Shown here: in pieces, positions 8,067-25,601 of the stretch
How positions within the stretch are numbered: the stretch's first letter is position 1
Layout of the letters: each line of letters opens with the position of its first letter
Source: Deltaproteobacteria bacterium
GTDB taxonomy: Bacteria > Desulfobacterota > WTBG01 > CAIYCZ01 > CAIRTM01
Length of the DNA stretch: 34,416 nt
Direction: 5' to 3'
Assembly (NCBI GenBank): GCA_016875025.1
Contig: VGSH01000021.1
Span: 1 to 34,416, forward strand
Notes under the pieces: generated by a model
Databases searched by the model: none
Told to the model about the DNA's origin: nothing
Seen by the model: only the letters and a program-made list of their open reading frames with translations
Made by a program: the position numbers and the translations under genes

Positions 8067-8320
8067 TCCGGCAAAACCTTTCTGTTTAATTGCTGCAAAG
8101 TCAGGTCTTCAATTGCCGTTTTTTTGCTTGAAGCCTGGTGCGTGTGTTTCAGGGTAGCAAAAAATATATCGTTATACAAAGTGATTTTTACAACATAAAC
8201 ACAGAAAGACACACAAGCAAAGCGGTAAAGTCGCCGTTATTAAAAATTATTTAATGGCATTATTGCCGAAAAATTCAACAGTTCTTTATTGCGTCATTTA
8301 TCATAAGTATTTAATATTAA

Positions 8321-8349
8321 TTGACTATTCCAGAATTTCCATTTAGAAT
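8321..8349 (+). promoter_or_regulatory. Sigma-70 promoter of gdhA
   Basis: TTGACT (8321-8326) and TAGAAT (8344-8349) are spaced by exactly 17 bases in an AT-rich stretch. This predicts a start near 8356 and a leader of about 140 bases before the gdhA ATG at 8495. Confidence 0.65.
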
Positions 8350-8362
8350 ACTTTAAAACAAA

Positions 8363-8376
8363 GGCAACCAGTTGCC
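8363..8376. promoter_or_regulatory. Candidate NrpR operator (GGCA-N6-TGCC)
   Basis: GGCAACCAGTTGCC is a palindrome with 6-base arms. It fits GGCA-N6-TGCC, the same layout as the archaeal NrpR operators GGAA-N6-TTCC and GGTA-N6-TACC. It begins 13 bases after the -10 box, at about +7 to +20 of the predicted transcript, where a repressor would block gdhA. A related GGCA-N4-TGCC sequence lies at 8256-8267. The binding protein is inferred from the divergent nrpR. Confidence 0.55.
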
Positions 8377-8494
8377 GATTAAAAGGTGTGAGTTTGCGTT
8401 TTTCAAAAACACGGCTGTCAACGAAACCTGCTGCAAGGCCACGCGCAACCCGGCGCTGCAGCCAAACGAAACATTCAGTGCATGGAGGCTAAAA

Positions 8495-15055: not shown

Positions 15056-16030
15056 ATGCCTGATTTAAAAGCCATAGCAGAGATACTGATCCACAAAGGG
15101 AAAGTCCGGGGCAAGCCGGTCGGTATAACCCTGTTTCGCGACACCCCGCCATCATCATACGAGCCGATCAATGAGGAGCCCTGCACCATTGTGCGCCTGG
15201 CAATGGATGAGGGCAAAGCCGTATACTTTGACGCCGAGCATCACGATTGCCTTGTCGGGGTGTATCATTGCGGCATGATACCGGGAAAGCGCGAAATCAT
15301 GTCCGGCGAATACCTCTCCTCGACCAGCAGTTTTTTTACCTGCGAGGGCGCGGCCCGGCTCAAGTCGGGCATGCTGAACCTGCCGCCCGGCATGGTGCGG
15401 GCCATCGGGGCCGCACCGCTCGATGCCGTGCCCGCAGGCGTTCAGGTTGACTGGATCGTTGTTGTCGCCAACCCGCATAACGCGAACCAGATCGCGGGAT
15501 GCCGGGTGGTGCAGGACGGCATGGTAGCCCATGGGGCATTCGGCACATCGCTGTGCGGCGATATCTTTTCAAGTCCGTGGCATAAAAAAAACATCATCAT
15601 TACCTTCGGCGATTTCGGCGGCAGGATGAACAACAGGATCAAGCAGGACCAGCTCTTCGTTGTCATTCCGATCGAATTTGCAGACTGCATTCCAAGGCTT
15701 TTCAATGATATGAAAATCGATGTGAACGCAAACCTCGCATTCACGAAACCGGAGTGGTCGCCCTTCTGGAACAAAAAGGGTGTGAAGACAGAAGACTATG
15801 TCAAACAGGCGGAACATCCAGATGCAGCGGCGGGCCCCTACACGATGGACTGGGATGAGGAAGCAAAGGAACTGGTGCACAAAGCCCCTGAGGGGATGAC
15901 GGAATTCATTATTGAAAATTCCGAAACGTATGCGCGCGAAAAAGGCTATCCGAAAGTCACGCGCGCTTCCATTGCAGAACAGATGGAGTCACTGGGCATG
16001 AGTCTTGATGAAATGATTGCTGATATCTAA
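15056..16030 (+). CDS. DUF169 protein fused to a C-terminal PCP_red domain
   Basis: The product has 324 residues. Residues about 1-235 match the DUF169 (COG2043) pattern shared with two other proteins in this window: GKPVGITLFRDTPP, an MLNLPPGMVRAIGAAPLDAV segment, the second conserved cysteine in TSLCGDIFSS, and GDFGGRMNNRIKQDQLFVVIP. Residues about 262-315 (DWDEEAKELVHKAPEGMTEF then ARASI-like KVTRASIAEQMESLGMS) match PCP_red, a small helical domain also found in light-independent protochlorophyllide reductase and other redox proteins. No enzymatic activity is established for DUF169. The conserved cysteines and the PCP_red / ferredoxin fusions suggest redox or metal work. The stop codon lies inside a TIR-like repeat fragment. 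Confidence 0.8.
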   Translation: MPDLKAIAEILIHKGKVRGKPVGITLFRDTPPSSYEPINEEPCTIVRLAMDEGKAVYFDAEHHDCLVGVYHCGMIPGKREIMSGEYLSSTSSFFTCEGAARLKSGMLNLPPGMVRAIGAAPLDAVPAGVQVDWIVVVANPHNANQIAGCRVVQDGMVAHGAFGTSLCGDIFSSPWHKKNIIITFGDFGGRMNNRIKQDQLFVVIPIEFADCIPRLFNDMKIDVNANLAFTKPEWSPFWNKKGVKTEDYVKQAEHPDAAAGPYTMDWDEEAKELVHKAPEGMTEFIIENSETYAREKGYPKVTRASIAEQMESLGMSLDEMIADI

Positions 16031-16110
16031 CGGGCTGTTGAAAAACATCCATCCTTCGTAGCAGCTCTACTGCGGAGGACGGGTCCATGTGCTGCGTTGT
16101 GCTTATTTTC
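16028..16110. repeat. TIR-element fragment at the DUF169 stop codon
   Basis: TAACGGGCTGTTGAAAAAC begins with the TAA stop of the DUF169-PCP_red gene. It matches the 18-base terminal inverted repeat of the 24321-24477 element with one mismatch. Further on, GTGCTGCGTTGTGCTTA resembles the element's internal CTGCTGCGTTGCGCTCA (minus strand). The second end is missing. Confidence 0.65.
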
Positions 16111-16130
16111 GCTGTAGCGGGATCACGGTA

Positions 16131-16152
16131 GGGGCACGGCATGCCGTGCCCC
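16131..16152. repeat. GGCATGCC-centred palindrome, copy 2
   Basis: This is a perfect 22-base palindrome with arms GGGGCACGGCA, preceded by GTA and followed by TGC. It sits next to the TIR fragment at 16028. Confidence 0.85.
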
Positions 16153-16227
16153 TGCAAAAAAGCCTGTAAAATAATTTTTTAACGCCGGGTCACATTACAA
16201 TGAATGTATGGCAACGATGGGGAAGCG

Positions 16228-16914
16228 ATGAGCACAAACAAAGAATATGCCGAGCAGTTCGAGGCGATGGGCTGCACACGAAAAGTAATCGCTTTCAAGC
16301 TGTGCAATGAGGTGCCACCGGATGCGGAGGACTATGGCGATGGCCAGTCGTTTATGTGCGCCATAACCGCCGAGGCCTGGGAGGACGGGCGCAGGCCCTT
16401 TTATATTACGGCCAAAAACAGCCTGTGCGGCGGGCCGGTCTATGCCGGGATCGGTGCGCGCACAATTGATAAAGAAGAGTTCGACGCAGGCATGTCCCAG
16501 ACCATCGGCGTGGGCCGCGGCTATGAAACACGTGCCCAGTTCAGGCGCGTCAACCAGCAGGTGCCGCATGTTTTTCTGGCGCACAGGTATCTGCTGATCG
16601 GCCTGCTTGACGATATCGAAGATCCGGATCTGGTGATGGCCGTTGCGCCGGCATATAGAATCATGCGCCTGTGCAAGGCCTATACCTGGAAAACCGGCGA
16701 GCTTGTGCAGGGCCTGTCAGGTTCGGCCTGGTGCACCTGCTCGTTTCCGCATGTGTACCGGACACAGACAATGGCGTTCACCACCGGGGATGAGCAGTCG
16801 CGGATTCTGATGGGCCTGGAGGAAGGCGAGCTCTATGCGCTTATTCACCGGGAGGCGCTGCCGGTCATCATGAAAAATTATAAAAACATACAAACCGGGC
16901 TGATGGGGATGTGA
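16228..16914 (+). CDS. DUF169 family protein (stand-alone)
   Basis: The product has 228 residues from ATG 16228 (MSTNKEYAEQFEAMGCTRKV). An in-frame ATG at 16204 would add 8 residues; GGGGAA just before 16228 favours the shorter form, though spacing is tight. It shares with the ferredoxin-fused copy at 24573-25442 the segment SLCGGPVYAGIGA (there SMCGGCANMGLGA), a KEEFDAGMS/REEFDAAIE helix, FRRVN/FRRVH and DIEDPDLVMAVAP. It also carries the second family cysteine in SAWCTCSF. The domain is intact and of family length. Function unknown. The SDR gene follows after 30 bases, so the two are probably cotranscribed. Confidence 0.8.
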   Translation: MSTNKEYAEQFEAMGCTRKVIAFKLCNEVPPDAEDYGDGQSFMCAITAEAWEDGRRPFYITAKNSLCGGPVYAGIGARTIDKEEFDAGMSQTIGVGRGYETRAQFRRVNQQVPHVFLAHRYLLIGLLDDIEDPDLVMAVAPAYRIMRLCKAYTWKTGELVQGLSGSAWCTCSFPHVYRTQTMAFTTGDEQSRILMGLEEGELYALIHREALPVIMKNYKNIQTGLMGM

Positions 16915-24572: not shown

Positions 24573-25442
24573 TTACGGGCCGTGCTGCGCGAAGACGGTC
24601 CGGTCGAAATTGGCTACCAGCCCCGGCAGCAGGCTGAAGGGCAGTCCGATCAGCAGTTCTTCGGGCTTAAGGCGCATGAACATACGGCCCCCGTGGTCGG
24701 CGGCGGTGAACACGGGCCGTTTGGCCTCAAGCATTACCGGAATGCTCATCAGGCAGGTCGACTTGCCTGCGTATCCTGTGATCACCTCGCCGGTCTCATA
24801 GGCCAGGGCCGTTGAAACGATGGTCAGCTGCCCGGGCGTTGCCGGAAACAGCACGATGTCGGGCGCATCGATCGCCTCGAGCGCGCCGATGATCATGGCG
24901 CGGTGAACGCGCCGGAACTGCGGGAATATGTCGCGGTTCTTGGTCATGGATTCGCGCGAGGCATAGAGGTTGCCCTCGCCCACGACCGAGGCCTCAATCG
25001 CCGCATCGAATTCCTCCCGCGCTACGCGCTTTGCGCCCAGACCCATATTGGCGCAGCCTCCGCACATGCTCGCATGCGCTGTAAATACCAGGGGTGATGC
25101 CTGCCCGTCGAAAATATCTCCGCACATCGCGCACCAGAACTGCGGCCCCGCTTCGAGCGGGATGTTCTCTGGCGGCCTCTCGCTGAACTTCATGGCGGCA
25201 ACGCCCCGCGTCAGGCCGAGTTTTTCTTTCAGGAGAGCGCACAGTCTGGCGCTGTCGCGCTCTGCCTTTACCGGCCCCGGCGCAATCGCGCCCACCGGGC
25301 AGTAGCGCAGGCACACGCTGCAGTCGCAGCACATGCCGGTGATGCACACAAGGTCACCGCGCCGCACGATGGCGCGGTTGGGGCAGTTGCCGATGCAGGA
25401 GCCGCAGCGTGCGCAGAGTTCAGTATCGATTATAAATGGCAT
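24573..25442 (-). CDS. Two-[4Fe-4S] ferredoxin domain fused to DUF169
   Basis: The product has 289 residues from ATG 25442, with AGGGAG upstream; an in-frame extension to 25544 lacks a ribosome site. Residues 10-20 (CARCGSCIGNC-P) and 38-48 (CDCSVCLRYC region, C38-C41-C44-C48) are two CxxCxxCxxxC(P) clusters of a bacterial ferredoxin. DUF169 follows from about 80: FWCAMCGDIF, SMCGGCANMGLGA, REEFDAAIE, STCLMSIP, GGRMFMRLKPEELLIGLPFS. The extra cysteines beyond the ferredoxin clusters suggest another metal or cluster site. It is the third DUF169 protein in the window. It lies 159 bases downstream of potD on the same strand and may share or follow the pot transcript, without an obvious functional link. 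Confidence 0.85.
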   Translation of the reverse strand: MPFIIDTELCARCGSCIGNCPNRAIVRRGDLVCITGMCCDCSVCLRYCPVGAIAPGPVKAERDSARLCALLKEKLGLTRGVAAMKFSERPPENIPLEAGPQFWCAMCGDIFDGQASPLVFTAHASMCGGCANMGLGAKRVAREEFDAAIEASVVGEGNLYASRESMTKNRDIFPQFRRVHRAMIIGALEAIDAPDIVLFPATPGQLTIVSTALAYETGEVITGYAGKSTCLMSIPVMLEAKRPVFTAADHGGRMFMRLKPEELLIGLPFSLLPGLVANFDRTVFAQHGP

Positions 25443-25510
25443 AGCTGATTCTCCCTGTACCAGACCGTTGCTATGTTTTCTTGCGCTGCGCTTCACGCGT
25501 CGCACTATAG

Positions 25511-25532
25511 GGGGTACGGCATGCCGTACCCC
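25511..25532. repeat. GGCATGCC-centred palindrome, paired-change variant
   Basis: This is a perfect 22-base palindrome with arms GGGGTACGGCA. Compared with the other copies, one C-to-T change is matched by the G-to-A change in the opposite arm. Followed by CTACAAGGCGCATTTTAAACAG, which resembles the inner TIR-element end. Confidence 0.85.
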
Positions 25533-25601
25533 TACAAGGCGCATTTTAAACAGACGTTAAAAATTTTTTTCCACCCAGGGTTTTGAAAATTTCGCGTCCC
25601 G

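Follow-up and report, generated by a model that had tools for sequence, protein, structure and literature searches.

A predicted NrpR operator at a deltaproteobacterial gdhA promoter and two palindrome classes recurring upstream of bacterial nrpR genes

The nrpR-gdhA spacer

The window, by which we mean the whole 34,416-nt stretch of DNA analysed, carries an nrpR homolog and gdhA on opposite strands, with the features of interest in the spacer between them (Table 1). The regulator satisfies both domain expectations of its family: an NrpR regulatory domain (PF01995, 273 bits, E 2e-81) and an N-terminal winged helix-turn-helix (HTH_12, E 1.4e-13; both Pfam). It is the only PF01995 gene in the genome, and its residues 89-327 match the regulatory-domain structure of MJ0159 from Methanocaldococcus jannaschii (PDB 3nek, E 3e-34), a homologous but archaeal protein to which the match is limited to that domain. 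An AlphaFold2 model of modest quality (mean pLDDT 70, from an alignment of seven sequences) places helices at residues 2-18, 25-34 and 41-53 and wing strands at 57-59 and 65-67. Judged by its sequence, the protein adjoining gdhA is a genuine NrpR-type protein, one of the bacterial homologs whose existence in "certain Bacteria" has been reported (PMC2723118). A separate relative with only the regulatory domain (30% identity, apparently without a helix-turn-helix) adjoins a gdhA end at another locus (L012, G003:C159).

Table 1. Genes and predicted regulatory features of the nrpR-gdhA region
Feature	Positions	Strand	Remarks
nrpR homolog, 335 aa	7059-8066	-	Pfam HTH_12 residues 11-73, PF01995 residues 84-321
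Degenerate N4-type site GGTAAAGTCGCC	8224-8235		Tentative; differs at 2 positions; 32 bp away from GGCATTATTGCC, the better N4 match
N4-type predicted operator GGCATTATTGCC (GGCA-N4-TGCC)	8256-8267		Precedes the nrpR start codon by about 190-200 bp
Predicted gdhA promoter, -35 hexamer TTGACT	8321-8326	+	Kept in same genus
Predicted gdhA promoter, -10 hexamer TAGAAT	8344-8349	+	Kept in same genus
N6-type predicted NrpR operator GGCAACCAGTTGCC	8363-8376		13 nt after TAGAAT; conserved half-sites, recurrent place after -10
Degenerate second N6 site GGTGTGAGTTTGCG	8385-8398		Exactly 22 bp downstream of GGCAACCAGTTGCC
gdhA, glutamate dehydrogenase, 452 aa	8495-9853	+	Pfam PF00208 E 1.2e-85, PF02812 E 2.5e-51

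The best promoter-like match of the spacer, TTGACT-N17-TAGAAT (10 of 12 matches), is followed by the 6+6 inverted repeat GGCAACCAGTTGCC (GGCAAC-CA-GTTGCC), which would span positions +8 to +21, approximately, of a gdhA transcript whose predicted start is near 8356. This layout, as described in the first-pass annotation, is exact to the base. We take gdhA to be the gene regulated through GGCAACCAGTTGCC, with repression itself inferred. Alignment with a genome of the same genus showed the promoter hexamers and half-sites retained and the centre of the palindrome altered (GGCAACCAGTTGCC versus GGCAATCATTTGCC). That genome also has GGCAATTTTGCC at the position aligned with GGCATTATTGCC, an intact GGCA-N6-TGCC in the register of GGTGTGAGTTTGCG (GGCATCGATTTGCC on the gdhA strand), and a counterpart of GGTAAAGTCGCC that is likewise degenerate.

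The palindrome of this window, taken alone, is at chance level and proves little: GGCA-N6-TGCC matches twice in the window against 1.56 expected, and 179 times in the 3.25-Mb genome. The stricter GGCAA-N4-TTGCC occurs in four copies, of which only GGCAACCAGTTGCC is intergenic. The significance of the site therefore rests on its conservation across nrpR loci and not on its count in the window.

Two palindrome classes upstream of bacterial nrpR

Our NrpR homologs came from the order, from the phylum, where 79 of 395 genomes had one above the Pfam cut-off, and from a named collection of genomes; several other phyla also have them. All 4-bp palindromes with gaps of 0 to 16 were then ranked de novo in 106 nrpR upstream regions against 20 shuffles. 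GGCA-N4-TGCC came first (70 regions), followed by GGCA-N6-TGCC (64 regions); in the shuffled regions the N6 palindrome averaged 1.05 with a maximum of 5, and the best of any palindrome reached 17. Among 133 non-redundant nrpR loci, N6 lay upstream in 81 and N4 in 88; of 1144 other windows taken from these loci, each class was present in 28. As those control windows are mostly coding, fairer yardsticks are the shuffles and the promoter controls given below, and Fisher p-values are too small since the loci are related. The first-pass annotation had named absence of conservation beside nrpR homologs as what would refute its proposal; that test was run and, with the N6 palindrome at 81 of 133 loci, failed to refute it. 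An exact site was lacking from the 520 bp upstream in 29 of the 133, mostly loci without a divergent gltB or gdhA. By record title, 27 loci belong to non-desulfobacterial phyla (Planctomycetota, Hydrogenedentota, Elusimicrobia, FCPU426, Poribacteria, Firestonebacteria and relatives of Lentisphaerae/Kiritimatiellae), and 18 of these have N6 and 20 have N6 or N4; most are metagenome-assembled genomes, whose titles may be wrong.

The proposal that bacterial sites carry C in the variable position also held. GGxA-N6-TyCC sequences upstream of bacterial nrpR had the variable-position pairs CG 94, TG 18, AG 11, TA 4 and AT 1, so that GGCA/TGCC (94) far exceeded GGTA/TACC (4) and the GGAA/TTCC (1) of the Methanococcus maripaludis operator, a species-level trait that does not define the family. 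The N6 palindrome follows a sigma-70-like promoter (TTGACA/TATAAT-like) directed at gltB or gdhA, and in most clear cases its first base is either 6-8 or about 16-25 nt downstream of the first base of the -10 element. Such placement is the geometry of repression, although repression itself remains an inference from the sequence.

The N4 class (consensus yGGCAA-WW-TTGCCr), absent from the first-pass annotation, is new here. Most of its members are found on the nrpR side, many of them near -56, with others near -130 or -200. Both classes have a common extended half-site, [C/T]GGCAA (N6/N4 frequencies: C, 0.54/0.63; A, 0.81/0.79), and the recognition helix of the protein is nearly invariant (S40-E-R42-T-V-R45, with R42 and R45 in 133 of 133 homologs), as expected for an invariant half-site. 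A further feature missing from the first-pass annotation is phased tandem sites. Among repeated N6 sites, a distance of 22 bp was seen 17 times and one of 32 bp twice, and among repeated N4 sites one of 42 bp four times. These distances correspond to roughly two, three and four turns of the helix; no single phase was apparent at longer spacings. Scanning 11 genomes of the order for tandem N6-N8-N6 returned perfect tandems only at nrpR (G001, G006), the remainder being chance-like.

Dependence of the sites on nrpR and its gltB or gdhA partner

The sites are tied to a particular gene arrangement. Of 84 loci in which nrpR and gltB or gdhA are divergent, 69 had the exact N6 palindrome, as the NrpR family's placing of palindromes at nitrogen-assimilation promoters would have it, and 82 had N6 or N4; where neither gene adjoins nrpR, N6 was found in only 3 of 26. 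The commoner partner is gltB, which the first-pass annotation did not mention. In nrpR-gdhA operons of distant homologs (about 34-37% identity), N6 lies 16-39 nt upstream of nrpR, and where gdhA precedes nrpR in the same direction no N6 was found upstream of nrpR (0 of 8). N4 also occurs upstream of nrpR genes standing alone. In nrpR-bearing genomes with an unlinked gltB, 7 of 9 gltB upstream regions contained N6, N4 or both (N6 in two of them), compared with none of 26 gltB/gdhA upstream regions in genomes without nrpR (Fisher 5e-6). One member of the window's own family (G008) has the N6 site GGCAAGCTGTTGCC 78 bp before its gltB match, with nrpR on another contig. The link between palindrome and NrpR, which had been an inference, is thereby supported by comparison (69/84 versus 3/26, 0/26 without nrpR and 7/9 in trans), without a binding assay.

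Taken together, we regard it as highly probable that GGCAACCAGTTGCC is the operator through which the adjacent NrpR represses gdhA and that a two-class code of this kind extends across bacteria; binding, repression and the 2-oxoglutarate signal are all inferred. Because N6 and N4 share their extended half-site, both classes are most simply explained by one protein that reads two spacings, although these sequence data do not exclude another reader of N4. A single NrpR would then need to recognise half-sites whose centres are either 8 or 10 bp apart, an ability not yet proven.

Alternatively, only N6 may be the NrpR operator, with N4 serving another factor or acting as a control element specific to nrpR. 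The 2-bp difference in spacing and the different placement of the classes (N6 with the promoters of gltB/gdhA, N4 towards nrpR) are compatible with such a division, as are the nrpR-gdhA operons, which have N6 only (N4 in 0 of 12). The shared [C/T]GGCAA half-site, the absence of both classes upstream of gltB/gdhA in nrpR-less genomes and the presence of both at unlinked gltB where nrpR is encoded all argue for a common reader, and we judge a separate N4 factor unlikely while keeping it in view.

It is more improbable still that an unseen regulator of the same genes owns the sites and that nrpR is a mere neighbour. A site cannot be assigned to a protein by proximity alone, and genomes without nrpR contain N4-type sequences too; yet nearly all of the N4 matches elsewhere, in 30 loci inspected, fell within coding sequence, and the sites track the presence of nrpR even when gltB is unlinked, appear as N4 at lone nrpR genes, and are missing upstream of every gltB/gdhA inspected in nrpR-less genomes. 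It is scarcely credible that the palindrome arose by chance or is some other known element, be it a sigma-54 promoter, an RNA leader or a terminator. The unremarkable window count and a weak terminator-like hairpin of GGCAACCAGTTGCC on the - strand would allow this, but conservation, the shuffles, the nrpR-less controls and the retention of half-sites around changing centre bases disfavour it. The sigma-54 -24/-12 consensus is GGCA-N7-TGC; the present sites are symmetric, have a spacing of N6 or N4, and do not meet the GG/GC requirement of such promoters. No Rfam family was found at the palindrome, and the leader and terminator readings were rejected along with sigma-54.

Regulon extent and the proposed circuit

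The predicted NrpR regulon looks local. A broad N6 regulon was rejected, as genome-wide counts of exact sites were near the control pattern and the other exact copies were almost all intragenic. The same holds for a suspected second target in G010 (L147), where the site lies inside a small gene and encodes GNKLP, and for N4 as the mark of another regulon, since the inspected matches elsewhere were mostly coding. No convincing operator was found in the loci of glnA (GSIII) or P-II genes.

A P-II protein (PF00543) was not detected in the draft assemblies of the window's genome (G000) or of G001, G008 and G010; of 14 control genomes, 13 were positive in the same search. The presence of NrpR does not preclude P-II, since several P-II genes were seen in two further genomes that carry nrpR. 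A bacterium without detected P-II, with a GSIII-type enzyme as its only glutamine synthetase, is unusual. In G000 and G008 the sole glutamine synthetase match looks GSIII-type, and in G010 none exceeded the threshold.

The archaeal counterpart offers a template. NrpR of M. maripaludis (nif/glnA repressor) binds GGAAN6TTCC, the sole archaeal operator form that we found in the literature, and its regulon comprises nif, glnK-amtB, glnA, molybdate transport and an alanine symporter (PMC2723118); 2-oxoglutarate releases archaeal NrpR (PMC9765008). The archaeal and bacterial systems have in common the NrpR regulatory domain, a 14-bp GGxA-N6-TxCC palindrome and operators at nitrogen-assimilation promoters. 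They differ in that the bacterial sites read GGCA-N6-TGCC, include the extra N4 class and appear confined to a local gdhA/gltB regulon. In the literature searched, which largely excluded subscription papers, we found no operator, regulon or GGCA-N6-TGCC consensus for bacterial NrpR.

We propose that NrpR would bind GGCAACCAGTTGCC through its winged helix-turn-helix and, lying over the transcription start just after the -10 box, would keep gdhA from being transcribed. Under nitrogen shortage, with 2-oxoglutarate rising, the repressor would come off the DNA and gdhA would be made; this signal is inferred from archaeal NrpR. The N4 site on the nrpR side probably serves autoregulation or cooperative binding, and the same two-class code may govern gdhA or gltB across bacteria, usually beside nrpR. 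The suggestion of a bacterial NrpR-Gdh circuit with its own operator code is supported by the conservation of GGCA-N6-TGCC at gltB/gdhA promoters. Our confidence is evenly balanced on the wider model, in which several phyla share this NrpR circuit (half-site yGGCAA, N6 at the gltB/gdhA promoter, N4 at nrpR and helically phased tandems) and NrpR is possibly the main 2-oxoglutarate sensor of ammonium assimilation where no P-II is detected. On that model NrpR would be the candidate for such a sensor in G000, G001, G008 and G010, sensing again being inferred.

Bacterial NrpR, known by its sequence, thus gains a predicted operator and target with a testable consensus, and the data indicate that an archaeal-type nitrogen repressor controls genes for glutamate dehydrogenase or GOGAT in several phyla of bacteria. 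How a single winged helix-turn-helix protein could read both spacings is a question that the paired classes raise, and the contrast between archaeal GGAA and bacterial GGCA provides a natural system for studying DNA-recognition specificity.

Several minor observations concern gene content. Some genomes (loci L323-L325) have two nrpR genes a few kb apart: the first is divergent from gltB and has N4 sites (L324 also N6), and the second is downstream of gdhA and co-directional with it, with a small ORF lacking these sites in front. Three ORFs near gdhA in the window (15056-16914 and 24573-25544) encode proteins that, by eye alone, resemble DUF169-type relatives. In a genome of the same family without detected nrpR, a gdhA-like gene (L189, G005:C22) contains an in-frame TAA.
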